Shown here one piece after another: positions 6,010 through 57,472 of a stretch of DNA of 64,000 bases. The stretch's first letter is position 1; every line of letters begins with the position of its first letter. The notes beneath the pieces are model-generated. The model was not told the origin of the DNA. It made no database searches and worked only from the letters and a program-made list of their open reading frames with translations. The DNA is taken from NCBI RefSeq assembly GCF_022919215.1, contig NZ_CP095046.1, positions 1,354,501 through 1,418,500 of the forward strand, read 5' to 3'. The position numbers were made by a program, and so were the translations under genes. This stretch comes from Hymenobacter cellulosilyticus (lineage in GTDB: Bacteria > Bacteroidota > Bacteroidia > Cytophagales > Hymenobacteraceae).

Positions 6010-6017
6010 CAACGCCG

Positions 6018-6075: not shown

Positions 6076-6084
6076 CAAGTGGCA

Positions 6085-6932: not shown

Positions 6933-6940
6933 TATTTTTG
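6933..6940 (+). promoter_or_regulatory. -7 box TATTTTTG
   Basis: A perfect TAnnTTTG sits 13 bases before the ATG at 6954, which would give a very short leader. I see no TTG at the right distance upstream. Confidence 0.45.
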
Positions 6941-6953
6941 CTACCTGGCCACT

Positions 6954-27675: not shown

Positions 27676-27696
27676 CCTGCGCCACACTTTTTTCCC

Positions 27697-27735
27697 AACC
27701 CCGCGCCGCCGTTCTGCTGGCGCGGGGTTGTTTTT
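27697..27735 (+). terminator. Intrinsic terminator
   Basis: AACCCCGCGCC (27697-27707) pairs perfectly with GGCGCGGGGTT (27719-27729) and GTTTTT follows. Sequence homologous to the inside of the neighbouring delta-60 genes resumes immediately after the T run. Confidence 0.9.
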
Positions 27736-28644: not shown

Positions 28645-28670
28645 ATAAGAGAGGAATTGCCGCATATAAA

Positions 28671-28707
28671 AAGGCCCTGGCAAAACATGGCGCCAGGGCC
28701 TTACTTT
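28671..28707 (+). terminator. Intrinsic terminator
   Basis: AAGGCCCTGGC (28671-28681) pairs perfectly with GCCAGGGCCTT (28692-28702), followed by ACTTTTA; A residues precede the stem. Confidence 0.85.
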
Positions 28708-28831
28708 TACCCGGCACCGGCCGGACCGCAAAGGGCTAGTCTGCTGGCGTGCTGTTTGAATTTTATTTTCGTGCTCCTGATAAGAGTGTGGTAACTTGCT
28801 CACCAATAGTTTCTTTTACCTGATTCATATT

Positions 28832-31324: not shown

Positions 31325-31446
31325 AAGGTAGCAGTCCTTTCAGCCGAACCGGTTATTCACACGAGTTCTTGCCCACCTGCCTGGACAATGTGTGGCTAGG
31401 TTGGTGACAGAATTACTACGCTCTCCTCTTCTTCTACTTGCATTCT

Positions 31447-34023: not shown

Positions 34024-34047
34024 CCGGATACTGCGGGGTGCTTTGGA

Positions 34048-34089
34048 AGAAAGCCGCCGTGCCTTATGGGGGTGCGGCGGCTTTCTTTT
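34048..34089 (+). terminator. Intrinsic terminator
   Basis: AGAAAGCCGCC (34048-34058) pairs perfectly with GGCGGCTTTCT (34076-34086) and TTTG follows. The rest of the gap to 34341 holds nothing I recognise. Confidence 0.85.
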
Positions 34090-34341
34090 GTTAACGCGGG
34101 GCCAACGAAATACGGGATACCTACGGCGGGGCCGCTACATCGACCTTCGGATCCTGTGGTAGTGCTCGACTTCAACCAGGCCTATAACCCATACTGCGCT
34201 TACGCGGCTAGCGGCAAGTGCTCCTGCCCAATACCACCGACCGAAAATCGTCTGCCCGTAGCTATTCGGGCCGGGGTGCGTAGCGACCATTAAGTCATGC
34301 AGGTTGGCAGAAAGTGCCGGGGCGCCGTATAGGCTCACGGT

Positions 34342-34956
34342 ATGCGCTATATTTCTCTCGACCTCGAAACCACCGGCGGAAACCCCGGCCGCCACCAGAT
34401 TCTGGAGCTGGCCGCCGTCGTAGAAGATACCAAACACCTGCGGCCGTTGGCGGAGCTGCCCGCGTTTCGGCGGGTGGTGCGCCACCCCGATTACACGGGC
34501 ACGGCCGGCGCCCTGGCCCTCAATGCCCGTTTGCTGGAAGAGCTGGCCCGCAAGGAACCCAACCCCGAGCTGTGCCTGCCCGAGGAGCTGATGCCGCAGC
34601 TGCGCGAGTTTCTGCTACTGCACGGCTTCCGGCCCGACAAGAAAGACTGCGTAGCCGTGACGCTGGCGGGCAAGAACATCGGCTCCTTCGACGTGCCTTT
34701 TCTGCGGCTGCTGCCAGGCTGGGGCACCCTGGTACGCCACGAGCCCGCCCTGCTCGACCCGGCCGCCTTTTACCTGAACTGGCGCAAAGACTCCCGCCTG
34801 CCCACCATGAGCATCTGTAAGGCCCGCGCCCACTTCGCCGACGATACCGTGGCCCACCAGGCCCTGGCCGATGCCCTGGACGTGGTGCAGCTGCTGCGGC
34901 CGTTCTATGAAATGCCGCTGTATAAGCAGGTAAACAACGCGGAAGAGCTGGATTGA
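34342..34956 (+). CDS. DEDDh 3'-5' exonuclease (DnaQ/oligoribonuclease-like)
   Basis: A 204-residue RNase T/DnaQ-fold exonuclease. All DEDDh residues are visible: Asp7 and Glu9 in ISLDLETTGG, Asp117 in GSFDVPFL, and His172 with Asp177 in AHQALADALD. It would degrade short single-stranded DNA or RNA from the 3' end. Length matches stand-alone members rather than the PolIII epsilon subunit, which it lacks motifs for. It sits between two delta-60 genes with no functional link, and its last codons overlap the promoter of the next gene. Confidence 0.87.
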   Translation: MRYISLDLETTGGNPGRHQILELAAVVEDTKHLRPLAELPAFRRVVRHPDYTGTAGALALNARLLEELARKEPNPELCLPEELMPQLREFLLLHGFRPDKKDCVAVTLAGKNIGSFDVPFLRLLPGWGTLVRHEPALLDPAAFYLNWRKDSRLPTMSICKARAHFADDTVAHQALADALDVVQLLRPFYEMPLYKQVNNAEELD

Positions 34957-34980
34957 GGGTAGAAATAAGGACTACATTTG
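34953..34980 (+). promoter_or_regulatory. Bacteroidota-type promoter (TTG, 17 bp, TACATTTG)
   Basis: TTG at 34953-34955 overlaps the exonuclease stop codon; TACATTTG at 34973-34980 is a perfect -7 box. The ATG of delta-60 copy 5 follows 24 bases later. Confidence 0.65.
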
Positions 34981-35004
34981 TCGGATGTCCTTATACTTTC
35001 CTGC

Positions 35005-37533
35005 ATGAAAAAACCCTTACACCTTTTATTACTTCTTCTGGGCGCCAGCTACAGCGGGCGGGTAGCCGCGCAGGTGCCTGATGCCTCCTTTGCCAGCAAC
35101 GGCGTGTATGCGCCGGCCGAGGTATACTCGTCGTTGCAACAAGGCGACGGTAAACGCGTCATCAGTGGCTCTTTTACCCGCATTAACGGTACGGCTGCCT
35201 ACGCGCTGGCCCGCTTTGATGCCACTGGAGCTCTGGATCTGGGCTTTACTCAAAACGTGGGCAGGGCCAGCGAAATTCTGAAAGTCCATCTGCTGGCTAG
35301 CTCCCAGTACCTGTTAGTTTCTACCTTCGACACCGTGCGCGCCGGTGGGCTTACCCGCCTGAACCTGTTACGCCTCAATGCTGACGGTACCGCCGATGCC
35401 AGCTTCAACACGGGAGGCTTGGCTATGGCGCAGGGTAAGAGAGGTTGGATAGATGATGCCCAGGAGCTGAACAACGGTCAGATTCTGGCGGCGGGCTACT
35501 TTGATAGCTTTAATGGAGCTGCCGTCAGCAACATCATGCGCCTCAACAGCGACGGTACAGTAGACACTAGCTACAAGCTCGGCACCGACCCAAGCGAGGA
35601 AATAACGACCCTGGTAAAGCAGCCCGATGGCAAGATTCTGCTTTGTGGCTACTTTAATTCGTTCGATGGCCGTCCCTGTCCGGGCCTAGCTCGCCTCAAT
35701 GCGGATGGCAGCTTCGATACCAGCTTCGTACCAGCCCTGGCAATGGGTAGCACCACGGCCAACATAACGGTGCAGCCCAATGGTAAGCTCCTTGTAGATG
35801 GAGTGCTTGGTTTGGCCTCCGGTGTAGCAAGCTTGGCCCGACTAAATGCCGACGGCTCGCTGGATAACACTTTTACTTTCCCCAGAATAAGCACGCTTGC
35901 CCTGAGCCAGCCGTATTTCAACAACACGGTGCAAGTGCAGCCCGATGGCAAAATTCTCATTGGTGGCTCTTTCTCGTTAGCTAATGGTGGTCCGGGCAAT
36001 GGAATAGCCCGCCTGAATGCCGACGGTAGTACCGATGCTTCCTTTCAAGTAGGTACCGGCATAGGCAATACAGGCAGCATTGGTCGTCCATATACGCTGA
36101 CCCTGCAAGCCAATGGAACGGTGCTGGTGGGCGGCCCCTTCTATCTGTTTGGTTCTCGCGATGATGCTCCGCTGGTGCAGCTTACCAGCACGGGGGCTCT
36201 TGACCCTACTTTTGCTCCCACGGTGCTAAAACCGGCTAACATTGGCAACATCGTTCAGCAAGCCGATGGAAAACTGGTTGTTTCCGGCAACTTCACAGAA
36301 TTCAATGGGCAACGGGTGCACCGCCTGGCCCGCCTAACAGCCAATGGGGCATTGGACGCAGCATTTAGCACTACGGTAGGAACGTCTCTGTTGACTCCAA
36401 CCACGGCCGTACCCCAGCCCAACGGCAAAATTATTGTCACTACCAGTACAACGGTGAGGCGGTATAATGCCGACGGGACCCTTGACCCCAGTTTTGCTGC
36501 CGTCACTGTCACCGGTGGCTCAATAAACGCCCGGCCGGTGTTGCAGCCCGATGGAAAAATCCTGATTGGGGGCTCTTTCACACAGGTAGGTAATGTGAAC
36601 GTGTACGAGAGGCCAGTAGCCCGGCTCAACCCCGACGGTACGGTCGATACTTCTTTCAACCTGGAAGAAATATCAAATCTTGACGGGATTAGTACCGTGT
36701 ATGCTTTAGGATTGCAGGCCGATGGCAAGGTCGTAGTAGGGGCTTTACACAACATTTGGGATCTGTATATGAGCCGGTATTCCAGCACCGGAGCTCTGGA
36801 TAATACCTTTGCCGTTACGGCCGTAACGAACCCTGGTACCAACCGTTTAGGCGCTGTATATGACATCGTGCAGCAGCCCGATGGCAAGATGCTGGTGGGC
36901 GGGCCGTTTGAAAAATACGGTACCGCTTCGTACTCGGGCCTGGTACGCCTGACCAGCAACGGCGTGCCCGATCCGGCCTTCGCCCAGGTGGCTCCCTTGC
37001 GCGGCGTAATCAACCGAGTGGTGGTACAGCCCAACAACCGTATCCTGCTTGGGGGTAACTTTGTAAGCACCGCAGTGCCGGCCCACAACAGCCTCATGCG
37101 CCTGCTCCCCGATGGACAGATTGATGCCAGTTTCGCGCCTACAGCCAAGCCCGATGCTACGGTCCGAGCCATTGTAGTGCAGCAAGACGGCAAGATCGTG
37201 CTTGGCGGAGAGTTTACCCGAATCAGCAACCAGGCCAGCATCAGCATCGCCCGTATTATGGCCTCGAATGTGCTGGTGATAACTGAGAAACAACTCGAAG
37301 CCCGCACCCAGGCCTGGCCCGTGCCCACTCACGGAACTTTGAATCTCTCCCTCGACGCTGTTGCTCAGCCAGAGTCGGTGCAGCTGCTCGACAATCTGGG
37401 CCGCACGGTGCTGAGCCAGAAAGTCACGCAGGCCGAAACGACCTTGCCTTTGCGGCAGGTGAAAGCTGGGGTGTATCTGCTCCGCGTCAACTACGCCAGT
37501 GGCCCCGTGACTCGCCGCGTGGTGGTCGAGTAA
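35005..37533 (+). CDS. Delta-60 repeat secreted protein with T9SS sorting domain, copy 5
   Basis: An intact 842-residue copy with signal peptide (LHLLLLLLGASYSGRVAAQ), delta-60 units (KQPDGKILLCGYFNSFDG, QVQPDGKILIGGSFSLANG, QQPDGKMLVGGPFEKYG and others) and a sorting domain (ARTQAWPVPTHGTL ... PVTRRVVVE) almost identical in wording to copy 3. The start at 35005 gives a classical Lys-Lys signal peptide; the in-frame TTG at 34978 lies inside the promoter. Local base composition is a little less GC-rich than that of copy 1, which suggests different ages of the copies. Confidence 0.88.
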   Translation: MKKPLHLLLLLLGASYSGRVAAQVPDASFASNGVYAPAEVYSSLQQGDGKRVISGSFTRINGTAAYALARFDATGALDLGFTQNVGRASEILKVHLLASSQYLLVSTFDTVRAGGLTRLNLLRLNADGTADASFNTGGLAMAQGKRGWIDDAQELNNGQILAAGYFDSFNGAAVSNIMRLNSDGTVDTSYKLGTDPSEEITTLVKQPDGKILLCGYFNSFDGRPCPGLARLNADGSFDTSFVPALAMGSTTANITVQPNGKLLVDGVLGLASGVASLARLNADGSLDNTFTFPRISTLALSQPYFNNTVQVQPDGKILIGGSFSLANGGPGNGIARLNADGSTDASFQVGTGIGNTGSIGRPYTLTLQANGTVLVGGPFYLFGSRDDAPLVQLTSTGALDPTFAPTVLKPANIGNIVQQADGKLVVSGNFTEFNGQRVHRLARLTANGALDAAFSTTVGTSLLTPTTAVPQPNGKIIVTTSTTVRRYNADGTLDPSFAAVTVTGGSINARPVLQPDGKILIGGSFTQVGNVNVYERPVARLNPDGTVDTSFNLEEISNLDGISTVYALGLQADGKVVVGALHNIWDLYMSRYSSTGALDNTFAVTAVTNPGTNRLGAVYDIVQQPDGKMLVGGPFEKYGTASYSGLVRLTSNGVPDPAFAQVAPLRGVINRVVVQPNNRILLGGNFVSTAVPAHNSLMRLLPDGQIDASFAPTAKPDATVRAIVVQQDGKIVLGGEFTRISNQASISIARIMASNVLVITEKQLEARTQAWPVPTHGTLNLSLDAVAQPESVQLLDNLGRTVLSQKVTQAETTLPLRQVKAGVYLLRVNYASGPVTRRVVVE

Positions 37534-41500: not shown

Positions 41501-42704
41501 CTACTCGTACTTCGGCGTTACGAGCGAGTAGCGCGCCGCCCCGCCCACAGTATCAACGTACAGGGTAAGCCGGCTGCCCAAGTCAGAAGCAAGGTGAAAC
41601 CGGACCTCGCTAGGGCGCTGCGGAGCGACAAACTTGCGCAGCCGGTTCACGCTGACGGGCCGGTGCGCCAACGGTTTGTCGCGGGACAGCACCCAAAGAA
41701 CCTTATTACCCGCGTCGAATAAATAGTGGGAGCGGGTTTGGGCCAAGTACTGGTGAATGAAGCCGTAGCCCATTTCGGCCTGAAACCCTTGAAAGTTGGA
41801 GCGCCCGATTTCACGGCCGTTCAGGTCGAGCAAGTAAGCGTTGGGGCCTGCTATTTCCCGGCTGGTCATTCCGCCATCCGCATCCAGGTAGGTTTCTCCG
41901 TTATACACTGCCAGTACGGTATTGTCGTCAATGAGTAGCGCACCGGCTGTTTCCTGGTTTTTGCGAGCCAGCTTTACGTGCCTGCCATCGGCATGCACGA
42001 TTTCGTAGGAGGTGAGCAGGGTGCGGCCGTCCGGGTCAGCGTGATGTCGTCTGTGGCCCCAAAAGCCCAGCCTTGCGGCCCAATGTGGCGCACTTTGCCG
42101 GTAGCGGCGTCGAGCAGCAGCAGCGCTTCGCCACCATCGTCGGTGTCGTGCAGGTAAAAAGGAACGACGAAGACCAGGGCGTTAAACTTGGGCAGATAGC
42201 CGTAAAAGTCGGGAGCGGCGGCAAAGGACTCGTTGACGTGGTCTTGCCCTAGAGCAGCGGCAAAGTCGGCTTTGTGCAGCGTTGTCGTGAATTTTGGTTT
42301 GCCATTAGCTGCCACCAGGCGCACGGTGTAGTTCACGTCGTAGCCGTAGCTGCCCTCCAGCGCCATAGCCTCCGACTTTGCCGTGGCTACCTCAGTTGAG
42401 TCGGTTGGGTCTTTGGGTACGGGCAGGCGGCGGCTGGCGTCGGTGGTGGCGCTGGTCAGCACCCGGTACTGTTGGCTTCCGATGGTGACTAGCGGCGGGC
42501 GACGGGTAGAATCGGCCTGGGAGCGTAAGGTCACGAAAGCTGCGGCCGTATCGGCTACGGCGGGGCCCAGGCGGCGCGGCGCGGCGGCGGGAGGAGCTAC
42601 TTCCGCGGGAGCAATAGGGACGAAGTGGTAGCTGCGGGCTGCCGCGATTCGCAGCTCAGCAGCGCGGCGCTTAGCAGCAGAGCTGCTACAAATGATTTAG
42701 GCAT
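41501..42704 (-). CDS. Unrecognised lipoprotein, possible beta-propeller (two frame breaks)
   Basis: The repaired product is about 401 residues. It begins MPKSFVAALLLSAALLSC, a clear lipoprotein signal (lipobox LLSC). After an Ala/Pro-rich linker come strands and turns such as VRLVAANGKPKFTTTL, LLLLDAATGKVRHIG, ITLTPDGRTLLTS, AYLLDLNGREIGRS and LWVLSRDKPL, similar to the blades of WD40- or PQQ-like propellers, but I do not recognise a family. Breaks lie near 42636-42638 (G run on the plus strand one short, between CESRQP and YHFVPI) and at 42033-42035 (one base short in TPDGRTLL). Its start is 310 bases from the divergent start of the 43-55 kb cluster. Confidence 0.65.
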
Positions 42705-43013: not shown

Positions 43014-44388
43014 ATGCATTTGACCAGTTCTTTCCGTCTGCTCCCAGCTCTGGCCCTTGGGCTGCTGTTGTTACCCGGCTGCTACTCCCGCAAGGATATC
43101 AAAGAGGAGGCCGGGGCCGAAACTCCCACGGAGGTACCCCCACGGAAGCGCCCGGGCTGTGGCGCCCAAAGAATCTACGGCGGAGGTTGCTCCCACTGCG
43201 GCCAGCTCTGGACCACTGGCTCAGGTCAACGTGTTTCTGGAAGTATCGGGCTCCATGGAAGGCTTCATGCCCAAAACCGGGGCCAGCGGCTCCAATACCC
43301 GCTTTCAGCAGCACGTGGCGCAGTTTCTGTCGGAAGTAAACCGCAGCTCGGCGGCCCGCAAAAACTTTCTGCGCATCAAGGAGAAGCCCTACCGTGACTC
43401 CTACCAGCAACTCTCCCAGACCGTGCGCGGCGGCATTCAGCAGCCGGCCAGCAGCACCGATATTCCCACGGTGCTCGATACGCTGGTGGCCAACTACTAC
43501 GCGCCCAACTCGGTCAGCGTGCTGATTTCGGACTTTATCTACTCCCCGAAAAACGCTGGCGCCATTCCCTACATCAGCACCGACATTACCGACGCCCTCA
43601 ATCGGGCCCAGCAGCAGGATCTGGCCGTGTCGGTGTATGGCTACACCTCTGACTTCCGCGGTACCTACTACCCGGCTCTGACCTCAAGCGTGAAGCGCAT
43701 CAACAGCTGCTGCGACACGGATATTCCCTACTACTTCTGGGTAATCGGGCCCGCCGATGCTGTGCGCCGCTTCGATAATGCCCTGCTCGAAAAGCAGCCG
43801 GCCCAGCAGGCTCACTTTGGGGTGAAATATCCGGTGCCAACTTCTTCGCTGCTGAACCGCTTCCAGAACGTGGGCTCCTGGTACTACGGCGAGAAAGACG
43901 CCAGCAAGCGGGCCGCCGGCGCTACCTACCACACGGTAGCCGTCAGCAGCGTGTCGGCCAAGGAGCCGGTGGAGTTTGTGGTGGGCCTGGATCTGAAAAC
44001 ATTGCCTGGCCTGTACCGGGACGTAAAGTATCTGAAGCCCAACCTCAAACTGCAGGCCCAGGACACCGACGCCAAGATTATCGACGTCTTTGCGGCCAAC
44101 GACCAAACCAAAAACAGCAGCGGGGCCGAAAATCAGTACACGCATTTTGTGAAAGTGCGCGTTACCAAGCTCGGCAAAGCTGCCCGCCCGCTCCAGCTCG
44201 TGCTCCAGAACCAGCGCCCAGCCTGGATAGGGCAGTGGACCACCAAGAATGACGGGAACATCAACCAGTCCGGCGCCAAGACCTTTGCTCTCACTTCCTT
44301 GCTCGACGGAGTGGAGGCCGTAACCACTGGTGAGCAAGACAAGGCCCCAATTTTCACCATTCCACTTACCCTGCAGTCGGCCGATTAA
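43014..44388 (+). CDS. VWA-like lipoprotein with altered MIDAS, first gene of the 43-55 kb system (two frame breaks)
   Basis: The repaired product is about 458 residues. The signal is that of a lipoprotein (LALGLLLLPGC, lipobox LPGC), followed by a Thr/Pro/Ala linker and a Rossmann-like domain that opens VNVFLEVSGSMEGFM. The layout matches the first strand of a von Willebrand A domain, where a DxSxS metal-ion site is expected; here the first residue is Glu77 with Ser79 and Ser81. Later strands SVSVLISDFIYSP and LAVSVYGYTSDFRGTYY supply further VWA-like features. The C-terminal 150 residues form a second beta-rich domain. Two single-base losses, at 43137-43141 and 43154-43156, best explain the switch from ETPTEVP through TEAPG to AVAPKES. 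The protein should be anchored in the outer or inner membrane facing the periplasm and may be the envelope sensor or ligand of the cluster (inference). Confidence 0.75.
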
Positions 44389-44493
44389 CCCGGTAACGCA
44401 CTCCGTCAATTCCCGTATCACCGGCACCCGCTCTACCGCTTTTCACCCTCGTTCCACGCTCCGCAAACCACCGTTTGCTCTACATTCCGCTCT

Positions 44494-44885
44494 ATGAAAG
44501 GCTTCTTCCGCTTTATCTACGAACTCATTGGCTCACCCCAGCCCCGTCCGAAACGCCAGTATACCGGGACGTGATTTTTCCCAACGTGGGCCTGCTGACC
44601 CTGGGCGTATCGTTGGCCATGGTTCTTATTTTCTACTACCTCATCAACCGCGCCATGGGCGTAGCTACCTTTAACAAGGTGCGGCACTGGGTAATTTTCC
44701 TGGTTGTCAACGCTCTGCTGGCCTTCATCATCGGTATCTGGCAGGCCAACTCCCAGGCTGTGGCCTCCCACAGCTATATCTACTGGATGTCGACCTGGAA
44801 CGCTATTCTGGGCTTGTTCTGGTTTTTCCTGTTCTCCGTCATCCTCAAGCGCGGCTCAACCAACGCCAGCACGACTCCTTTTTAA
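44494..44885 (+). CDS. Small three-helix membrane protein of the 43-55 kb system (frame break near 44567)
   Basis: The repaired product is about 130 residues: an amphipathic start (MKGFFRFIYELIGSPQPRPKRQY) then three hydrophobic helices (VGLLTLGVSLAMVLIFYYLI, HWVIFLVVNALLAFIIGIW, WNAILGLFWFFLFSVIL). I do not recognise a family. The break at 44566-44568 (GGG where GGGG is needed) lies between QYTG and DVIFPNVG. Spacing of 105 bases after the VWA-like gene and 165 before the tubulin-like gene, all on one strand, suggests co-expression and a role as a membrane anchor or channel part. Confidence 0.72.
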
Positions 44886-44901
44886 GGCTACAGAACTAAG
44901 T

Positions 44902-44945
44902 CCCCTCCTTAGATAAGGAGGGGTGCCCGAAGGGTGGGGTGGTTG
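44902..44945. repeat. Dispersed GC-rich hairpin repeat
   Basis: CCCCTCCTTA (44902-44911) and TAAGGAGGGG (44914-44923) form a tight palindrome, followed by TGCCCGAAGGGTGGGGTGG. This wording recurs between genes in many Bacteroidota genomes, from memory; it may also end transcription of the small membrane gene. Confidence 0.6.
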
Positions 44946-45050
44946 AAAATCCAGAACAACTGACGCTCAACGACCTCCGTCAAGCCTACCCAAACTGCAT
45001 CATCCCCGCATCATCTGCACAGGGGAGATTCGCCAAACTTCAACTCCAAC

Positions 45051-46498
45051 ATGGCTAAACTGTTCATTTTCGGCATTGGCGGCACCGGTTCCCGCGTTAT
45101 TCGGTCCCTGACCATGCTGCTGGCCTCGGGCGTGAAGCTCGCCAACTGCGACCGGGTGGTGCCCATCATTATCGACCCCGACGCCCACAACGGCGACATG
45201 AACCGCACGGTCGACATGCTCAAGAGCTACCAGCAGATCTACCAGCGCCTAGGCAAGCGCGACGAGGGCTTCTTCCAGACTGACATCAGCACGCTCAGCA
45301 GCATCTCGGCCGACAACAACGGCGGCGTGAAGGACACCTTCGTGTTCGACTTCGGCGGCATCAACCAGAGCTTCCGCCAGTATCTGAGCTACGACCAGCT
45401 TTCCGTGGATTCCAAGGGTCTGGTGGAACTGCTCTTCACCCAGGACAACCTGGAAAGCCCGCTTACTATCGGCTTCCGCGGCTCGCCCAACGTGGGCAGC
45501 ATCGTGCTGAACAAAGTAGTGGAATCGCCGGAAATCCGGTTTTTCGCCGACAACTTCCAGGCCGGCGACCGGGTGTTCTTCATTTCCAGCATCTTCGGTG
45601 GTACCGGCGCGGCCGGCTTCCCGCTGCTGCTCAAGAACCTGAAGGACCAGAATACCCGCCTGAGCAACGCCCGCTACCTGCGCGACGCCCTCACCGGGGC
45701 CGTGACGGTGATGCCCTACTTCGCCCTGCAGAGCGAGGACAACTCCATCATCGACTCCAACTCCTTCCTGACCAAAACCAAGGCGGCGCTCAGCTATTAC
45801 GAGCACAACCTGCAGGGCCTCGACGCGCTGTACTACCTGGCCGACACGCCCGACACGCCCTACGAAAACCAGCCCGGCGGCACGGCCCAGCGCAACAAGG
45901 CCCACCTCATCGAGCTGCTGGCGGCCCTGAGCGTGGTCGACTTCATGCAGTACACCGATGCCGAACTGCGCAACGGCGGACCGCACTTCCACGAGTACGG
46001 CCTCGGCGTCGACACCCAGGAACTCAACTTCAGCCACCTGCCCGATGAGAGCCGCGAGCTGGTAGCCAAGAACCTGACCCAGCTGCTGTACTTCTCGCGC
46101 TACCATAAGCAGCACCTGCCCACCGACAAGGCGCCCTACTTCGACAACCTGAACCTGGACCACGCCCTGCGCAACGAGCCCATCTTCAAGGAGCTCAACA
46201 ATTTCCTGCATAGCCCGAGTACGGCGTGGATGAGTGGCTGAAGGAGCTGGCCCAAAACCGCCGCGCCTTCCGCCCCTTCGACCTAACCACCGACGACTTC
46301 AACGCCATGATTGCCGGCAAGCCCGTAGAAAAGAAGTGGAACGACTTTTTCAACAAGGGTCTCAGCCAGAACTACTTCCTTAACCAGCTCAACGACGCGG
46401 CCAAGTCCGTGCAGGAGCCCGACAACTTCAAGAAGCTCGTGGCTTTGTTTGACAGGGTAACCGACAAAGCCTTTGAGGAAAAGGTGAAAGTCGTTTAG
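45051..46498 (+). CDS. Tubulin/FtsZ-like protein of the 43-55 kb system (frame break near 46216)
   Basis: The repaired product is about 482 residues with no signal peptide, so cytosolic. The N-terminus LFIFGIGGTGSRVIRSL (glycine loop at 8-15) and the later FGGTGAAGFPLLL (183-189) match the two nucleotide-contacting glycine loops of the tubulin/FtsZ superfamily, the second corresponding to the GGGTGSG signature. VVPIIIDPDAHNGDMNR between them fits the second strand and loop. Sequence outside these motifs is unlike FtsZ or TubZ, and there is no FtsZ C-terminal tail. The break at 46214-46217 (one base short between LHSP and EYGVDEW) detaches the last 95 residues. Filament formation and GTP use are predicted from the fold only. 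The closest description I know is the tubulin-like family predicted to work with VWA and OmpA proteins in membrane remodelling. Confidence 0.78.
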
Positions 46499-46517
46499 TA
46501 GAACGTCAACCTGGAAC

Positions 46518-46606
46518 GTCATGCTGAGCTTGCCGAAGCATCTCTACCGCAATGGTAAAGTCTGTCTACTACTGCGGTAAAGATGCTTCGGCAAGCTCAG
46601 CATGAC
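46518..46606. repeat. Perfect 26-base inverted repeat
   Basis: 46518-46543 (GTCATGCTGAGCTTGCCGAA...) and 46581-46606 are exact reverse complements, with a further 7-base TACCGCA/TGCGGTA pair inside. The GAGCTTGCCGA wording is shared with the repeats at 54160 and 54995, so this is another member of the same dispersed palindromic family. It lies between two genes of the cluster. Confidence 0.85.
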
Positions 46607-46678
46607 CGGCTAGCTTATTTGACGTTCATCCGCCGTTTCCCTTCCGGTGGCTCTCCTTATTAAAGCAAACTCCCGACA

Positions 46679-49600
46679 ATGCCCAAAGTTCTTCGTCTTC
46701 ATAACAACGGTTCCCAGCAGGTGCAGGGCTGGCAGAAAACCGCCCCCATCACCAGCACCGAAATCAATACCGTAACCGACCCCACGGGCGGGCGGGCCAA
46801 GAACGTGGCGGTCAGCATCCCGACGCCCTTTGCGCGGATGCACCTTTTTGAAACGGCCTTCGACTTCCTGGCCCGCGAAGGGCAGCGCAACCCGGCTCGG
46901 TCTACCACGAGCTGGTGTCGCACTTCTGGGACCTGTTCGAAATCCTCTACAACTACAACCTCTATACCCAGGCCGGCCGCAAAATCACCCTGCGCCGCTG
47001 GAACGTGGAGTCGGAGCTGCGGCGGATGCAGGGTGACGAAGGCACCCGCCTGCTGGGTGAAACCCTGCGCCTGTTCTTGCAGGACGACCGGTTCCGCGAC
47101 TTCTCGGACATGTACCTCGTTTTCTACGAGTCGCCGAACCTGCCCGGTGGCCCGCAGCTGCTGGGTGGCACCTCGCCGCTGACCATGTTCTTCACGGCTC
47201 CGGCCGTGCGCCGGCTGGACTTGGAGCGCGCCCAGGCCCGCGGCCATTACTTTGATGATCAGGTGGTGCTGCTCGAAGACCGTTCGCCGGCTTTCCGGGA
47301 GTTTGTCTACGAGCTGTTCCTGGCGTATCCGCAGCTGCAACGCCGCGACTTTGCCGGCAGCGTGTTTGCCGGATTGGACCGCAACATCATCAACCAGATG
47401 CAGATGCGGGGCGACCATACGGCCCAGCAGTTTGCCACCAAGTACCCCGCCATTGCTGACTTCCAGGGCAACTTGGCCAGCGTGAAGCACGTGCCCCTAC
47501 CGAGCCGCGCCGATCAGTCGGCCGTGACCAGCTCGGACCTGTTCATCGCGCCCACGCGGCAAACCAACCAGAGCCGGCCCACGCCGCTGGTGCTGCGCCC
47601 CAACCTCACGATGCAGGGCGCCAACTACCTCAACGGTCAGCCCTGGGACGACCGGACGCCGGTGCCCTACGCTGACGAGCTGACCCTAGAAAACCGCGTG
47701 CTGCCCGGCAAAGGCTTCAAGTATCCGTACCTAACCGTGGGCGACTTCCTGGAAGACGCCCTGGTGGAGCTGCCCTACGAGCTGAATTCGCAACGTTTCC
47801 ACACCGGCAAGGTCACCTTCCAGTACGGAGCCGACACCCAGGGCCGGGCGCGCTTCCCCTATCTGCTGCCCCTGCGCCAGACCTTCTTCGAGTACTTCTC
47901 CGACCACGACCTGGCCGAGCTGCTCACCTTCACCATCGATTTGAACCACGTGCGCATCGCGCTGCGGATTCCGGTGCAGGGAGGCCGCTTCATCACCTTC
48001 GAGCGGAGCTATTACCAGAACCCCCAGAACCCCAAGGACGCCCAGGGTCGGGAGATTCCCGAGAAGGGCCGCATTGTGAAGGCCAACATTGGAATGGGCG
48101 TGTTCCCGTTCTACAAGATGCGCGCCCAGCCAGAGTACAACGACTTCTACAAGGTCATGCTCGTGGACGCCGACAACTCGCCCACGATGCTGCAGCGCCG
48201 CTACGACCTCACGTTCTTCGTGAACGGGGAGCGGCTCACCGACCAGGGCGCGGCCAAGAAAGCCACCAAGTTTGAGCGCACTCAGAAGAGCGTATCCACG
48301 GCTGGCAGCACCTACTACGAAATCACCGGGACGCACTTCGACCTAGCGGAGCTGACCTGCCCGCCCGCTTTTCACGGCGCACCGCCAGCTCGGGGCCTCA
48401 TCGTGCCGCGCTGGCGGGAGCTGGACCGTGGCACCCGGCGCTTCACCTTCGCCGTCGACTTTGGTACCAGCAACACCCACGTGGCCTACGCGGATGGTCC
48501 CTCGGCCCACCCGCGCCCGTTTACCATCGGCGAAAACGACTTGCAGATGGAGCTGCTCAACGCCCCACTGCCCGACACCGGCTACTCGGCTTTCCAGCGC
48601 TACATGCGCGGCCCCGGCCAGCTGTTCGACATTCCGCTGATTCAAAACCGCGAATTCGTGCCCAGCATCATCGGGGAGGCCGGCTCGGTGTATGAATTCC
48701 CGATTCGGACGGCCGTGTGCGAAACGAACTCCTACGCCAACGAGCCGAGCAAGGTGCTGAGTAACATTAACATTGGCTTCAGCATCAACACCGAGACCGG
48801 GCAGCCGCCCCAGAACCGCTTCGTGACCAACCTGAAGTGGAGCGCCGAGTTGGACCCCCAGGGCGTGAACCGCATTGCGGCCTTCTTCAAGGAGATCTTG
48901 CTGCTGATGAAGCATAAGGCGGCCATGCAGGGCGGTATTCTGGAAGACACCCGCGTGGTGTGGTTTGCCCCACTGAGCTTTGATATGTTCCTGCGCAACC
49001 AGTTTCAGCAGGTCTGGGACGAGGCCTTCCAGCAGATTTTCCGGGCCCGCCGCCCCACCCAGTGCATTTCGGAGTCGGTGGCGCCGTACTACTACCTCAC
49101 GGCCACCAACCAGGTGGTTCCCAACCGCGACGAAAACGTCATCAACATCGACATCGGCGGCGGCACCACCGACCTGCTGATTTTCGCCGAGCAGAAGCCG
49201 GCCTTCAGCTCCTCGTTCCGCTTCGCCGGCGACGACCTGTGGGGTGATGGTTACGCCCGCGTGCAAGGCGCGCCCAAGCAGAACGGTCTGTTGCGCCTCG
49301 GGGTACAGTACGTGGAAAGCCTGCCGGACTCCGAAGAAAACCAGGAGTACAAGGGCTACCTGCGCGCCGCCCTGCAAAACCCCGATTTCGGCTCGGCCGA
49401 CGTGACCAGCCTGCTGTTCACCTACAACGACGCGCTGCGCTTCACCCAGAGCCTGGGCCTGGGCAAAGGGCGGCAGCTGCGGGTGTTGTTCTACCTGCAC
49501 TACACGGCCATCGTCTACCACGTGGCCCAGCTCGTGCAGCACCTTGGCCTCAAGCCCCCGCGCTACCTGTGCTTCTCCGGTAAGGGTAGTTTGTACCTGC

Positions 49601-50148
49601 GTCTGCTCAGCGGCGGGGCCAGCATGGCGGCCATTGAGAAAATCAGCAAGGCCGTGTTCAAGGCCGCGACGGGCCAGGAAGCTCCCCAGAACTTCCGTGT
49701 GATTTTGGCCGACAACCCCAAGGAAGCCACCACCAACGGCGGCGTACTGTTCGAGGAAAGCGCTACCAGCGCCGCCGACTTCGACCAGATCCGCACCGTG
49801 AAGCTCAACGGCGCCACCGAAGGCCAGGACATCGACACGGCCCGCCTGAAAATGCCCCAGGTGGATGCCGACCTCAAGCAGAGCGTTATCGACAACACCC
49901 GCCGCTTCCTGGAAATCGTGCTCGACAACGACGACGTGGCCCCGCTTATGCGCGAGGTGGGCGTGGACGTGGACCGCACCCGCATCAAGGAAATCCTGCT
50001 GCGCGAAATCGAGGACAGCCTCAACCTGGGCCTGCACCAGATTGGCCGTAATCTCGGCCAGGGCGAAACCCTACCCGAAACGCTGTTCTTCTACCCCATG
50101 AAGCAGGCGTTGTATAACCTGAGCCGGGAGCTGATTTCGAACGGGTAG
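46679..50148 (+). CDS. Giant actin/Hsp70-fold ATPase of the 43-55 kb system (frame break near 46894)
   Basis: The repaired product is about 1,156 residues. The C-terminal half is an actin-like ATPase domain: phosphate-1 loop FAVDFGTSNTHVAY with Asp594, phosphate-2 loop INIDIGGGTTDLLIF with Asp825 and Asp832, and FSGKGSLYLRLL near 966 as a likely adenosine motif. The N-terminal 590 residues (with RLFLQDDRFRDFSDMYLVFYES, LPYELNSQRFHTGKVTFQYG, FTIDLNHVRIALRIPVQGG) have no family I recognise; SrfB-type proteins are also about 1,000 residues with an Hsp70-like fold and are worth comparing. The break at 46894-46895 loses one G before GSVYHELVSHFW. No signal peptide. As a chaperone-like or filament ATPase it would be the cytosolic partner of the tubulin-like protein coded just upstream. 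Confidence 0.8.
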
Positions 50149-50182
50149 GAATCAAATCAGTAGTTGATAGTGCTGCTGACTT

Positions 50183-50596
50183 ATGAAATACATCTGCAAG
50201 TTGTTTCTGCTTCTTCTCCTGCCCCTGAGCTCTTGCTTTTGGGGCAGTGAGTTTGAAGAGAAACACATTACTGGCAAGTATTACACTTCAGGGTATGAGC
50301 ATTGGCAGCAGCCTATGAGTGCAGTTTATCTGTATTTCAAAGAAACTGATGATGAGGTATCCGAAGCGTTAATTCCGGAGATGCTTGAAGCAGTGGGAGC
50401 CAATGAGAGGAATATAGTCTTGAAAGGCTTTGGTGAAAACCATTACTACATTGCTAGAATAGTATCCGACGCCGACCGGAATACCGCACGTAAGAATATT
50501 CTTGGCCCGCTTGATAAGAGTACCTTTTATCAAAAACTGCGACAGATGAACGGTGATACGGCCCTATGTTTCACGCACCATTACCAGATGTTGTAG
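50183..50596 (+). CDS. Small AT-richer lipoprotein inside the 43-55 kb system
   Basis: A 137-residue lipoprotein (LFLLLLLPLSSC, lipobox LSSC) with mature part EEKHITGKYYTSGYE, IVLKGFGENHYYIARIV and a C-terminal helix. I do not recognise the family. Codons are visibly AT-richer (for example runs like GAATATAGTCTTGAAA) than in the flanking genes, which suggests separate acquisition. It starts 34 bases after the actin-like gene and ends 26 bases before the next, in the same direction. Confidence 0.65.
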   Translation: MKYICKLFLLLLLPLSSCFWGSEFEEKHITGKYYTSGYEHWQQPMSAVYLYFKETDDEVSEALIPEMLEAVGANERNIVLKGFGENHYYIARIVSDADRNTARKNILGPLDKSTFYQKLRQMNGDTALCFTHHYQML

Positions 50597-50622
50597 CCCG
50601 TCTACTTTCCTTTCCCCTTCAT

Positions 50623-52226
50623 ATGACTTTTCCCCGCCGCCTTTTCTTACTCTTTAGCATCCTGCTGCTAACGGCTTCCCGCCTATCGGCCCAAACGCCC
50701 TTGGGTCAGCCCACGCTCGACGAGCAAAAGGTGCAGATCTGGTGCGCTACGGCCCGCTACGTGTACGACGACAACAACCGTCCTAATCTCAAGAACAGCC
50801 TGAACTGCGGCGGGTCGTTGCAAGACTTCGTGAGCAGCATCAAGGCTGACAGCCAGAAGGTGTACAGCATGCTGTATCAGCCGCTGGAAGGCAAGGGCAC
50901 GATGTATAAAGGCCTGGGCTCGGATAAGTCGCGCCTGCAGAAGCTGACTACTGAAATCATCACCAAGCTCCAAGCTTCGCCAGCCCGCCGCGCAGATGCA
51001 GCCCGCATGGCCAAGCTCACCACCCTCAAAGGCCAGCTCGACGCCTACGTAACCAACGGCACCCCGCCCGCCGACCTGAACGAGGACGTAACCGCCGGCG
51101 CGACGGATACCGAAGAAGCTGCCGTTGTGGATGAAGCCGCTCTGGCTACGACCGACGCCGGAGTAGGGCAGGGGGCTGTGGAAGCTAATACCGTGGCTCC
51201 TCGTCCGGCGGCCAGTGAAAGCCTGATGAGCAAGCTGTTTGCCCCGCTGGCGTTGATTCTGTCCTTGCTAAGCATTTTTCTCTACGTGATGCTGCGCCGC
51301 AGCATCAGCGCCCTGGGCACCCGCGCCGACCGGCACCGCAGTGAGCTGGAATCGGTGAAGGCGGCGGCTCTGAGTGGTAGTGCACCCTCGGCGGGTGTAG
51401 TGGCCGCCAACGCTTCCAAGCGAATGACGCCCGAGCTGCAGCGCGAAATTGAGCGAATCGTGCAGCAGCGGGTTGCCGAAGAACTTGCCAAGCAGCAGTC
51501 GGCTCCAATAGTTCCCGCACTTAAGGCAGAGGCCCCAGCCCCGCGTCAGGCTGCTCCCGTAGCTCAAGCTCCTAATCGGGCCACGAATGTGCCGAACCGT
51601 GCTGCCGGCCCTCCGGCCCCGTCCGCCAGGCGGCTCCGGCTCCGGCGCAGCCAGCACCCGCTCCAGCTCCGGCGCCGCCGGTGCAGAACCAGTTTCAGAA
51701 CATTGCCTCTGCGCCTACGACGTACGCCCCGCCGCAGGTTCCGATGCACGAAACGGCGCAGACACCCCAGCCCATTCCTTCGGGCTCCCCGGCTTCCGCT
51801 CCGCGCGACGACTTTGACAGCCTCGTGCCACCCGTGCAGCTGCCCGGTCCCGAAACCTGGGAAACGCCAGCGCCTGCTGCCCCAGTAGTACCTGCTCCCG
51901 CACCCATGCCGACGCGCTACTATGTGAAGGTGCCCGTCAACGGCGGTTTCAGCGAGTACGACCTGCAGGACCAGCCCCAGCACGACAGCATCTACGAAAT
52001 CATAACGGACGCAAAAGTGCCCGAGCGGGCTACGTTCCGCGTTACTTCCAACACTGGCGTCCACGCCTACGCCATTCAAAGCGCCCAGTATTCCCTGCGC
52101 GAGGCCTGCGCCTACCAGCAGCCCAACGGCCCTGTGTCGCGCATCGTCACCGATAAGGACGGCACGCTGGTGAAGAGCAACGGCGCCTGGCAGATTGAGC
52201 AGAAAGCGGCTATTCACTTTGAGTAG
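50623..52226 (+). CDS. Membrane-spanning linker protein of the 43-55 kb system (frame break near 51627)
   Basis: The repaired product is about 534 residues. Order: signal peptide (LFSILLLTASRLSAQ), a periplasmic domain to about 135 with conserved Cys (IWCATARYVYDD, LKNSLNCGGSL), an acidic linker, one membrane helix (LFAPLALILSLLSIFLYVML, about 207-226), a basic and helical segment (PELQREIERIVQQRVAEELAKQ), a 150-residue Pro/Ala/Gln-rich linker, and a C-terminal domain (YYVKVPVNGGFSEYDLQDQPQHDSIYEI ... KNGAWQIEQKAAIHFE-like). It thus joins the periplasm to a cytosolic domain across the inner membrane. The break at 51626-51627 (one C short in SAQAAPAPAQ) falls in the Pro/Ala linker. No family is recognised. 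Confidence 0.7.
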
Positions 52227-52228
52227 CC

Positions 52229-52627
52229 GTGGCGCTAAAAAAGAAAAATGGTGGTTTTGAATTGCCAATAATCGGGTTGCGGGTAGCGCAGATTGTCTAT
52301 TCTGGGCGCTTAAAACTGGTTTTTGATGATGCTGAACAAAGCCGGCTCGATCTTGACGGCGCATTCAGTATTACCCGTTATGATCAAACCATTCGTTTCG
52401 AGCCACTTTCCAAAGAGGCTTATATGTGTGGCTACGATATCTTGAGCTTAGGAATTAAGGCGGCAACGGGCGGCACTCATGGGACGCTGCTGCTCGTTTT
52501 TGAAAATGGCTGGGAACTGTACGTAGAGGACGGCCCGTATGAGAATTGGCACTACACGAAAAGAAGCCTTTGTAATCCTTCTGCCAACCTGTATGTGCAT
52601 GGCGGGGTAGGCCAAACATCTTATTGA
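52229..52627 (+). CDS. Small AT-richer protein, possibly DUF6188-like
   Basis: A 132-residue soluble protein starting at a GTG two bases after the previous stop, which suggests coupled translation. Segments ELPIIGLRVAQIVYSGRLKLVFDD, YDILSLGIKAATGGTHGTLLLVFENGWELYVED and GPYENWHY resemble small DUF6188-type proteins, some of which sit with toxins as immunity proteins; this resemblance is from memory and uncertain. Base composition is clearly lower in GC than the neighbours. Confidence 0.6.
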   Translation: MALKKKNGGFELPIIGLRVAQIVYSGRLKLVFDDAEQSRLDLDGAFSITRYDQTIRFEPLSKEAYMCGYDILSLGIKAATGGTHGTLLLVFENGWELYVEDGPYENWHYTKRSLCNPSANLYVHGGVGQTSY

Positions 52628-52689
52628 GCGAGGAAGATGGCTACTACGCATTGTTAACCTAAGGCAATAGTATGTAGCTTCGTAGCCTT

Positions 52690-54146
52690 ATGCTCGAAAT
52701 CATTCTCGAAGTCGTTGTGGTCGCCATCGTGGTAGGTCTGCAGATTCGCACGTTTCTGCAAACCCGCACTCAGGCCCTGCGACTCAGCCAGCTCTACCCA
52801 ACCCGCGACGCCCTGCGCGTGGAGCGCCGCCTGGTTACGCCGGCCGGCATCGACTTGCCCGACTACGCCGCCGACGCCCCGGCCGACTCCTTTCTGGTGG
52901 ACATCATTAAGGCCGACAACGTGTCGGAGGGCTTCCGCGAGATTATCGACGATACCAACGGCTACCTGCGCTACAACAAGGGCGCGGCTGATTTTAGCAT
53001 TCTGAAGGACATTTCTGAGCGCCAGAGTCAGGTGCTGGAAAACGCGGTGCAGGCCAACGTAGCTACCCCGCTCTACCTGGGCTTGCTCGGCACGTTCCTG
53101 GGCGTAATCCTGGGCTTGGTGGGCATAGCCCGCAATGGCGTATCGGACGACGAAGCCCTGACACCCTTCCTCACCGGCGTACTCATTGCCATGACTGGCT
53201 CTTTCGTAGGCCTGCTGCTCACGTTGCTCGGCAACGGGGTGGTGCGCAACGCCCACCAGAAGCTCGACCAGGCCCAGAACAACTACTACACTTTCCTGCA
53301 AGCCCGCCTGCTGCCCATTCTGCACTCGGATATGGCCGGCAGCCTCTCGAATCTGAAGGCCGTACTCGACGCTTTCAACCAGGATTTTGTCAGCAAGGTC
53401 ACCGTCTTTGAGCCCGTCATTGGCACGCTCACCGAGAACGTGAAAGTGCAGCGCGACTTCCTGACGCGGCTCAATGAAATCGGGTTCGACAAGATGGCCA
53501 GCGCCAACGTGGCCGTGTTTGAGAAGGTGAGCCAGTCGGCCGAAATGTTCGGGCAGTTTGTGGGCTACCAGCAGCGGCTCAACCAGATGCTGGAAGACGG
53601 CACCGCCACGGCCCAGGCCGTCAGCAGCATCCTGGACCGCCTCGTGGGCTTCGAGCGAGGCATCAACAACGTGGGCAGTACATCGGCCAGCACGACAACC
53701 TGGTACAGGCCCAGCTCGACTTCTTCCAGCGCCACCAGAAGGAAATGGGCAACCTGGCGGCCCGCACCGAGCAGTATTTCGACGAAGCCACCGGCCGCCT
53801 CACCGATCTGATGCAGCAGCGCCTGAGCTTCCACGAGCGCGACGCTCAGCAGGCCTACGAAAAGTGGCAGCAGCACTTCCAGAAGCTCAACGAGGACAAC
53901 GTCTTCGACCGAATCCGGCAGTACCTGGAGCCCTTCAAGACCCTCAACGGCCAGCAGGAAGCCCTGAACCGCGACGTAACCGCTACCCAGCGCGAGCTGC
54001 TGCGCAAAATCGAGCTGGACTCCCAGATTCAGGCCAAGCTGCTTTCCGAGCTAACCAACTTAAACACGGTGCTAGTGAAGGCCACGTCTAAAAATCGGTT
54101 CCAGCGGTTTATGGACAGCCTGTTCGGCGGCGTGAAGCCAGTATAG
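52690..54146 (+). CDS. MotA/TolQ/ExbB- and ZorA-like channel subunit with long cytoplasmic tail (frame break near 53676)
   Basis: The repaired product is about 485 residues. A first membrane helix (residues 2-19) is followed by a cytoplasmic stretch to about 124, then helices 2 (TPLYLGLLGTFLGVILGLVGI, about 126-146) and 3 (LTPFLTGVLIAMTGSFVGLLLTLLG, about 157-181) with the MotA/ExbB proton-channel pattern. About 300 residues of mostly helical, coiled-coil-prone tail follow (LDFFQRHQKEMGNLAARTEQYFDEA, KLNEDNVFDRIRQYLEPFKTLN). This topology, a stator channel with a long C-terminal cytoplasmic tail, is that of ZorA. The break at 53676 loses one C before QYIGQHDNLVQ. With the next gene it should form a proton- or sodium-driven stator. 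Confidence 0.82.
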
Positions 54147-54159
54147 ATCTTGATAATTA

Positions 54160-54260
54160 GAACGTCATGTCGAACGCAGTGAGACATCTCGCGTGGCATC
54201 GTTCGGTTAATAACTCAACATCAGCACGCGAGATTCCTCGCCAAGCTCGGAATGGCGTTC
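54160..54260. repeat. Imperfect palindromic repeat, copy A
   Basis: Begins GAACGTCATGTCGAACGCAG and ends AAGCTCGGAATGGCGTTC. Its reverse complement matches the repeat at 54995-55093 closely over almost the full length, so the two copies flank the OmpA-like gene in opposite orientation. Confidence 0.8.
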
Positions 54261-54287
54261 AAATAGGAACAGTATAGTACCAGTACC

Positions 54288-54965
54288 ATGAACGACCCGC
54301 AAAACCGCTCTTCCAACGACTTCTTCTGGCCCAGCTACGTGGACCTGATGACGTCGCTCTTCGTGGTGATGCTGGTTTTGTTCGTGTATAGCTTCAAGCT
54401 GTTCAAGGACCGAGAGCACGACCTGAAAACAGCCAACGGGGAGCTCAAAGCCAAGGCCGAGGAGCTGGAGCAGATTACCAAGATCCGCAACTCGCTCAAG
54501 CGCCTGGAAGGCCGCTACTTCAAGTACGACCCTGCCCTGGAGCGGCACGAGCTGCTGGTGCCGGTGCAATTCAAGTCGGGGCGCGACGAAATCCAGGACG
54601 CTTACAAGCCGGCCCTGCTGCAGGCGGGTCGCACGCTGCGCTCGGTGCTCAAAACCATCAAAACCGAGCAGCCAGTGCGCTACCTCGTCATTGTAGAAGG
54701 CATGGCGGCCCGCTACGCCGGCAACGACGCCCGCAACCGCGCCGAGGAGCAGCTCACCTACCAGCTCAGCTACCGCCGGGCCCTGAACCTGCTCAACTTC
54801 TGGAAACAGAACGGCCTCGACTTCAGTCAGGACAGCGGGGTGGAGCTCATCATCGGCGGCAGCGGCTTCTTCGGCACCGGCCGCTACCGGGGCGCAAAAG
54901 AAGGCCAGAACAAGCGGTTTTTGATTCAGGTGATTCCCAAGATCGGGCGTATTACCAGCCGGTAG
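54288..54965 (+). CDS. MotB/ZorB-like OmpA-family protein
   Basis: A 225-residue protein with a short cytosolic start, one membrane helix (about 20-40) preceded by FFWPSYVDLMTSLFVVMLVLF, a coiled-coil (41-85) and a C-terminal OmpA-like domain. Asp19 in YVDLMTSL occupies the place of the ion-carrying Asp of MotB. The OmpA-like part shows VPVQFKSGRDEI, LVIVEGMAARYA, LSYRRALNLLNFW and NKRFLIQVIPK: the Arg of the NxR motif is present, while the usual Thr-Asp after the EG is missing, so peptidoglycan binding may be altered. It follows the MotA-like gene by 141 bases and completes a stator pair. Confidence 0.85.
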   Translation: MNDPQNRSSNDFFWPSYVDLMTSLFVVMLVLFVYSFKLFKDREHDLKTANGELKAKAEELEQITKIRNSLKRLEGRYFKYDPALERHELLVPVQFKSGRDEIQDAYKPALLQAGRTLRSVLKTIKTEQPVRYLVIVEGMAARYAGNDARNRAEEQLTYQLSYRRALNLLNFWKQNGLDFSQDSGVELIIGGSGFFGTGRYRGAKEGQNKRFLIQVIPKIGRITSR

Positions 54966-55093: not shown

Positions 55094-55232
55094 CATCCTG
55101 TTTCAGTGCAGACGAAAGCCGGAGTAAACACCGTTAGGAAGTAGGTAAGCCAAAACAAAAAGCCGCAATCCGCGCAGTTTGCGGGTTCTGGGTTTATATT
55201 CGGCCCATCCTCCTTTCTACGCTCTGTATCGT

Positions 55233-57472
<2,240 letters not shown>

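Follow-up and report, generated by a model that had tools for sequence, protein, structure and literature searches.

Tubulin-family and actin-family proteins act together at the inner membrane in the FtsZ–FtsA pair. For the FtsZl1 or Tubulin_2 kind of prokaryotic tubulins, we know of no tested function since a role was predicted for them in 2010. Makarova and Koonin (2010) placed FtsZl1 in a putative membrane-remodeling system, for which the available part of the article names vWA, GTPase, kinase, and OmpA proteins as partners (PMC2875224). GTPase systems combined with tubulin homologs, vWA proteins, and an HSP70 protein were also described (Kaur et al., 2020; PMC7159879), and section 29 of that article presents the themes of tubulin and HSP70 as not overlapping. 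A description of an operon combining a tubulin, an actin, and a stator was not listed in searches of the open-licence PMC literature. Here, we analyze such a gene cluster at positions 43014-54965 of a 64,000-nucleotide stretch (the window, to whose positions all coordinates of the cluster refer) of the Hymenobacter cellulosilyticus contig NZ_CP095046.1, which belongs to an assembly of 6.09 Mb in 3 contigs. The cluster encodes a tubulin/FtsZ-like protein (TUB), an actin-family protein (ACT), and a stator pair (STA and STB). An earlier note on this DNA had taken it for a single machine in which ion flow through the stator is coupled to both cytoskeletal proteins, acting either to reshape the envelope or to respond to invasion. 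The analysis shows that TUB and ACT belong together as a unit, while the stator is a modular and optional part, probably recruited in part of the Bacteroidota.

The cluster consists of nine groups of open reading frames (ORFs), all located on the + strand, and every gene named in the earlier note is present in the claimed direction. The core order is VWA-like lipoprotein, small membrane protein (TM3), TUB, ACT, a linker protein (LNK), STA, and STB. This cluster is real and its recurrence in 40 Hymenobacter loci, gathered by a pattern search recovering close relatives, is beyond chance. The VWA-like, TM3, and TUB genes are found in 40/40 of these loci, ACT in 39/40, STA in 38/40, and STB in 37/40, and the loci lacking ACT, STA, or STB (L007, L018, L033) stop at a contig end. 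Intact copies were referred to the locus of Hymenobacter metallicola (L001).

TUB (45051..46498, +; 482 aa in H. metallicola) carries the loops GIGGTGSR and FGGTGAAG, and their GGTG and FGGTG cores, corresponding to the glycine loops T1 and T4 for GTP binding, are invariant in 82 aligned sequences. The window protein matches the Pfam families Tubulin (E 1.7e-5) and Tubulin_2 (E 0.0046) under their cut-offs. At E 0.01 or better, Tubulin_2 is matched by 17 of 22 diverse aligned members (best 4.1e-10) and Tubulin by 16. The relatives L053, L090, P0203, and L199 exceed the Tubulin_2 cut-off; a cyanobacterial relative (tblastn E 7e-29) scoring above this cut-off is annotated as tubulin-like. A control comparison of TUB with an MreB profile gave E 0.42. 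The family assignments of its members thus support TUB as a putative tubulin-family protein, as had been claimed, although its direct comparison with FtsZ is weak. TUB is not the FtsZ of this genome, which has a separate ordinary ftsZ.

In ACT (46679..50148, +; 1156 aa in H. metallicola), approximately 580 aa precede the first phosphate motif, and the phosphate loops read DFGTSNTH and DIGGGTTD. Profile comparison with hhalign returned MreB (E 9.4e-7), FtsA (E 9.9e-8), and HSP70 (E 5.7e-6) with probabilities of 86 to 94%, the control comparison with an FtsZ profile gave E 0.47, and a PDB match to actin (8r2n) was found at E 1.6e-4, while the Pfam matches remain under their cut-offs. The residues D594, G596, D825, G827, G828, D832, G968, and G970 are invariant in 84 sequences; we take them to form, in this order, the phosphate-1, phosphate-2, and adenosine motifs characteristic of the ASKHA superfamily. 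These similarities support the proposed actin fold and suggest that ACT is a member of the actin/HSP70/FtsA (ASKHA) superfamily with a large N-terminal region. Ordinary copies of FtsA and MreB exist in the genome and rule out that ACT is either of them; an assignment to SrfB, suggested by weak Pfam similarity (E 0.065-0.072) and on which a literature search listed nothing relevant, was dropped.

The association of the two proteins was followed across 395 genomes from one class, that of Hymenobacter, which we take to be the Bacteroidia, with the H. cellulosilyticus genome included. The TUB profile matches 22 of the 395, and long ACT matches (E 2.1e-78 or better) occur in 21 genomes, all of them within those 22; as loci recovered through TUB contributed to the underlying profiles, ACT proteins of a far clade lacking TUB could be missed. 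An ACT-profile match of any length is present in 359 genomes. The count is restricted to the 21 with long matches; the others that were listed are short matches near the phosphate-2 region. The single TUB genome without a long ACT match (G422) has a TUB cut off by a contig end. By coordinates, TUB and ACT are adjacent in 20/21 genomes and lie on different contigs in the remaining one (G175). In a set of 59 relatives, TUB occurs in 40, including 36/36 genomes of the same genus, and ACT in 39; this ACT search used one sequence, which a distant ACT, e.g., in G037, could escape. G037, with a distant TUB, is the only TUB genome of this set without ACT, and the ACT profile found no match in the approximately 30 kb around its TUB. 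In G036, where TUB ends a 6.8 kb contig, ACT gives a weak match (E 2.1e-4). Both genes are retained even where they are unlinked: in G040, the cluster is split into VWA–TM3–TUB, ACT–LNK–STA, and STB at three separate places, with TUB and ACT 234 kb apart.

Moreover, among 120 listed relatives of ACT, four are TUB–ACT fusions with TUB in front, three of which contain both parts at full length (P0203, P0205, P0208), while the fourth is distant (P0238, 1642 aa). The remaining 116 relatives do not exceed 1229 aa, and three of these were scanned for TUB. The pairwise distances of TUB and ACT correlate with r 0.94 (n=25), and within clade 1 with r 0.77 (n=17), values reached by 0/2000 permutations each and uncorrected for species relatedness; the two trees contain the same groups, although the branches do not all match. 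Because of the co-occurrence, the distance correlation, and the four fusions, TUB and ACT cannot be regarded as genes regularly found apart, a finding that would have spoken against the earlier note. Their pairing, which that note singled out as striking, is indeed the striking point and is stronger than the sequence of one locus could tell, although side-by-side coding of a tubulin and an actin has a precedent in ftsA/ftsZ. A match in G133 (E 6.8e-4, within a 1,499-aa frame) was discarded as it was missed by the TUB and ACT profiles. In L090, where TUB lacks an adjacent ACT, a PspA/IM30 gene (2741-3466, +; PF04012, E 4.5e-20) follows directly after TUB.

STA (52690..54146, +; a 494-aa ORF in H. 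metallicola) is a ZorA/MotA/TolQ-like protein with three predicted transmembrane (TM) helices and a long tail. It matches PF01618 (MotA_ExbB) at E 3.8e-4, under the cut-off, and the PADLOC model ZorA2 at E 8.1e-6; its top PDB matches are coiled-coil proteins, followed by TolQ (7.6e-4) and ZorA (0.0096). STB (54288..54965, +) is ZorB/MotB-like and has one predicted TM helix, which contains the previously reported Asp19, invariant in 13/13 sequences, and an OmpA-like C-terminal domain. It matches the PADLOC model ZorB1 (E 5.6e-13), and its best PDB match is the type I ZorB of Shewanella (8vvn, 1.1e-13). The pair therefore has the make-up of the MotAB/ExbBD/ZorAB stators, i.e., a MotA/TolQ-type subunit and a B subunit with a membrane Asp and a periplasmic domain. 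In what we take to be the peptidoglycan motif of OmpA, STB does not have the usual Asp and keeps the LSxxRA stretch, and for this reason its binding to the cell wall is uncertain.

In the class survey, STB is linked to the cluster in 10/22 TUB genomes, which come from six families, it is found elsewhere in the genome in two (G438, G422), and at the thresholds used it is not detectable in the other 10/22. Conversely, 6/18 STB genomes lack TUB. In these TUB-negative genomes, the STA–STB pair occurs in five loci (L143-L147, from four genomes), an STA–STB–STB arrangement in L141, and STB alone was recognized in L142. The distribution does not support the claim of one inseparable machine of stator, tubulin, and actin, and the stator as an inherent part of it is rejected. 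The loci L143-L147 and L138 hold two-gene STA–STB units with no TUB or ACT nearby, i.e., standalone stators. In L141 (5173-15596), STA–STB–STB lies at approximately 2 kb from a large DEAD/DEAH helicase protein and near a 460-aa ORF, and it may represent a different stator-based system. In clade-1 loci without a stator, other proteins are encoded downstream, e.g., an aspartyl-protease protein and WG-repeat proteins; in L083 (15206-17358, +) and L084 (14897-17020, +), the position of STA/STB is taken by an aspartyl-protease-like protein and a membrane protein with WG repeats, with the families scanned in L083.

The stator, where present, is not a random neighbor, and the linker protein carries part of the reason. 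LNK (50623..52226, +) has, as judged by eye, a signal-peptide-like start, followed by a single predicted TM helix and a conserved C-terminal domain (CTD). Owing to Pro/Ala-rich stretches, the iterated profile of full-length LNK was considered unreliable, and a profile of the CTD only was used. The CTD is present in 18/19 clade-1 loci outside L001-L050 for which the region after ACT is available and is missing in L091. In L085 (2198-4300, -), the LNK CTD is fused to the end of the tail of a 700-aa STA, and in the split genome G040 STA stays beside ACT and LNK; the CTD common to LNK and STA and the arrangement in G040 tie the stator to the unit. In L056, a second CTD-bearing LNK-like protein is encoded upstream of the cluster on the opposite strand (5576-7189, -).

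The first core gene (43014..44388, +; 459 aa in H. metallicola) encodes the VWA-like lipoprotein. In 18/18 members, the Cys of the lipobox is invariant, and so is a Ser-Asp pair ([IV]SD); there is also an SGSM-like stretch whose first residue is Glu, Asp, or other. We take a MIDAS-like pattern of DxSxS, T, and D residues to be the hallmark of VWA domains. None of the 18 members, nor three further proteins at that position, has a VWA match in Pfam, and the PDB search with the protein gave no relevant match. A VWA domain was thus not found by profile, and the putative VWA identity is based on the lipobox, SGSM, and SD motifs. The second gene, TM3 (44494..44885, +; 130 aa in H. metallicola), encodes a protein with three predicted membrane helices.

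The unit is not confined to Hymenobacter. A search of cyanobacterial plasmids, to which the cyanobacterial data refer, revealed three (Gloeothece and two strains of the Picosynechococcus group) with a membrane protein, TUB, and ACT adjacent and a VWA-like gene alongside, which lies on the opposite strand in Gloeothece. Hidden Markov model matches were obtained for TUB at 1.3e-72, 4.2e-69, and 1.3e-70, for ACT at 6e-43, 7.3e-46, and 1e-44, and for the VWA-like proteins at 1.1e-17, 4.5e-6, and 3.5e-9. The membrane proteins have three or four predicted TM helices, and 2/3 of the VWA-like proteins show a lipobox and the DxSGSM pattern (DGSGSM, DASGSM), while the annotation of the third begins at a later start. 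Among the proteins tested in these three loci, none matched a stator gene, and none was seen beside the core on the plasmid of Picosynechococcus PCC 7003. The ACT family extends to two proteins of Acidobacteriota (P0260, P0264), whose subfamily profile is linked to ACT at E 1.7e-47. A second group within the Bacteroidota (L094-L098) also pairs TUB with ACT, and in L095-L098 a lipoprotein was recognized by eye in the VWA position; in this group, genes for TerD and OmpA occur in L096 and one for a kinase in L095. In a Prevotella record of 1.77 Mb (L198; NC_022111.1), which is deposited as a plasmid and bears a single annotated feature, VWA-like, TM3, TUB, ACT, and CTD proteins are encoded in a row.

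Our preferred reading, to which we assign a probability of slightly less than one half (about 0.47), is that TUB–ACT is a nucleotide-driven, FtsZ/FtsA-like envelope complex to which a stator was added in part of the Bacteroidota and which serves upkeep or remodeling of the envelope under stress. TUB and ACT would form one cytosolic, nucleotide-driven and possibly polymerizing complex under the inner membrane, similar to FtsZ and FtsA. The small membrane protein TM3 and LNK may anchor this complex to the membrane, LNK by a single TM helix that would separate its signal-peptide-like N-terminal part from the CTD, the orientation being presumed. The VWA-like lipoprotein would be the partner on the envelope side, reporting or acting there. 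Where a stator is present, probably in a ZorAB-like 5:2 arrangement, ion flow would move STA, whose long tail could reach TUB–ACT and pass the movement on through the CTD or a partner surface of the CTD, while STB would hold the cell wall if it binds there at all. The CTD shared by LNK and the STA of L085 and the invariant Asp19 of STB speak for such a coupling. Maintaining or remodeling the cell envelope under stress is the likeliest role of such a complex and at the same time the least certain step, and it is suggested by the presence throughout the sampled genus, the neighboring gene in the main clade, and the occurrence of PspA_IM30 beside TUB in L090, of TerD and OmpA in L096, and of a kinase in L095.

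Several findings weigh against this reading. The window TUB scores 16.7 bits against a cut-off of 27 for Tubulin_2 (PF13809), and its comparison with Bacteroidota FtsZ profiles gives E 0.016 and 0.006 (probability 3% and 6%) with the alignment near the T1 loop. Neither STB with OmpA nor STA with MotA_ExbB reaches the Pfam cut-off, and the stator is lacking in many TUB–ACT genomes. Furthermore, PspA was observed in one locus (L090), as was TerD (L096). The gene upstream of the cluster, a nucleoside-diphosphate (NDP)-sugar gene at 39702, is present in 40/40 main-clade loci but in only 1/6 loci of more divergent Hymenobacter; the genomic place is therefore conserved within the main clade only, which lowered our estimate for the envelope complex slightly and raised that for a Zorya-like role slightly.

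A bolder alternative, which we hold as tentative, is a new kind of motor, in which TUB and ACT form a composite tubulin–actin filament or switch that is conserved in at least two phyla, sometimes as one polypeptide, and that is driven mechanically in the Bacteroidota by an ion-powered rotary stator docking through the shared CTD. If this were true, ion flow, GTP, and ATP would act on one envelope-spanning machine, and the stator, if coupled, would provide a direct link from membrane ion flow to a tubulin–actin assembly.

It is rather unlikely, in our view, that the cluster is a Zorya-like anti-phage system, with the stator as a sensor of envelope disturbance by an entering phage and TUB–ACT as the effector module. 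Such a role would fit with the fact that, for the 10 window ORFs, PADLOC gives matches to ZorA and ZorB and to no other model and that STB has a ZorB as its best structural match, with TerD in L096 and the kinase gene in L095, and with the same stator family lying near a helicase protein in L141. Furthermore, in the flanks of 13 loci from outside the genus (97 ORFs), 16 PADLOC families match at E 1e-10 or better, including mad2, mad3, mad6, mad8, ThsB, and PD-T4-6, counted over all loci together. However, no PADLOC match to ZorC, ZorD, or ZorE was found among the 10 window ORFs, TUB is present in all sampled genomes of the genus, and the upstream neighbor is constant in the main clade, although not in the divergent loci. 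In the 97 flanking ORFs, no PADLOC family matches more than three, and the 25 listed Pfam families out of 62 mostly concern metabolism, transport, or the surface, both counts being read without a background set. No match was found in 50,697 phage records. A defense-island setting is therefore not favored, and neither is the earlier suggestion of a response to invasion, given the presence of TUB in 36/36 genomes of the genus and the lack of ZorC/D/E matches in the cluster.

A similarly low, marginally smaller chance is given to TUB and ACT being non-polymerizing switches of a conflict or signaling system with triggered oligomerization, as in the systems of Kaur et al. (2020), which according to the available text (PMC7159879) include tubulin homologs, vWA proteins, and HSP70. 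The patchy spread outside the genus, with TUB in 22/395 genomes of the class, and the copies on cyanobacterial plasmids, the only cyanobacterial sequences searched, are in line with this; the presence throughout the sampled genus speaks against it, as does the finding that none of the 10 window ORFs has an above-cut-off Pfam match to a P-loop GTPase, the core of those systems. That the stator pair is a mere neighbor, TUB–ACT working alone and the stator being a separate system, is improbable; this explanation overlaps with the others, and its odds are not additive with theirs. While it accounts for the standalone STA–STB pairs in TUB-negative genomes and for TUB–ACT without STB, it is at odds with the linkage in 10/22 TUB genomes from six families, with the CTD shared by LNK and the STA of L085, and with STA remaining beside ACT and LNK in G040 even though TUB is elsewhere. 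Finally, a motility, secretion, or cell-shape machine, in which the stator moves a surface or wall component via a TUB–ACT scaffold, is very improbable, as the long tail, the OmpA-like domain, and the lipoprotein that would suit it are outweighed by the stator-less versions and by the finding that no gliding or secretion family scores above cut-off among the 10 window ORFs.

In the window, 6/7 core genes are interrupted by frame breaks, while relatives within Hymenobacter have intact copies. A tblastn comparison with the H. metallicola proteins showed that the genes for the VWA-like protein (near 43140-43230, frames 3 then 1), TM3 (near 44544), TUB (near 46214-46265), ACT (near 46891), LNK (between 51624 and 51681), and STA (near 53676) are each broken across two frames, STB being intact in a single frame. 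In the same assembly, a gene taken as ftsA (an actin-family match beside ftsZ, L178) is likewise split across two frames, and because this gene is also broken, the breaks in the cluster are read as assembly indels rather than decay; they are likely sequencing or assembly errors. A flanking gene (41504-42564, -) is frame-split in comparison with L001 and L006, and possibly also another one (55152-55999, +), which together with the ftsA-like gene points to an indel-rich assembly. Two further ORFs within the cluster do not look like core components, judging from the layout in H. metallicola. A small ORF (50183..50596, +), lipoprotein-like by eye and with no Pfam match, is probably a variable insert, and its position in H. 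metallicola is taken by a different ORF seen in 1/40 loci. The ORF at 52229..52627 (+) contains DUF6188 (PF19686, E 7.4e-7, above cut-off) and is probably also a variable insert, as only a 0.2 kb gap with no room for an ORF exists there in H. metallicola. Further upstream, at 25144-37530 (+), the window holds an array of related ORFs in several frames; the two that were scanned encode beta-propeller proteins of the DUF5122 family, each with a Por secretion tail.

Compared with the described systems, TUB–ACT is similar to FtsZ–FtsA in that tubulin-family and actin-family genes lie side by side; it differs in that the genome has its own ftsZ with an ftsA-like neighbor and in that ACT adds approximately 580 residues before the actin motifs. 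The GAP1-N2 systems share tubulin-domain, vWA, and HSP70-fold proteins with the cluster, whereas, in the available part of the article, they are centered on P-loop GTPases and a stator is not mentioned (Kaur et al., 2020; PMC7159879). The closest motor is the ZorAB of Zorya (PMC11890865), which STA and STB resemble in the long cytoplasmic tail, the membrane Asp, and the periplasmic OmpA-like domain; in contrast to Zorya, the stator here sits with TUB–ACT and the cluster has no ZorC/D/E match. The closest known system as a whole is the FtsZl1/vWA/OmpA system of 2010, with which the cluster shares a Tubulin_2-kind protein, a VWA-like protein, an OmpA-domain protein and a kinase in some loci, and cyanobacterial members. 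While the available description of that system (PMC2875224) contains no actin-family partner, stator, or linker, ACT is a regular and sometimes fused partner here. The present cluster would widen the composition of the FtsZl1 system, and an actin-family protein as regular partner, down to fusion, in Bacteroidota and Cyanobacteriota provides a concrete, testable composition for a Tubulin_2 machine.

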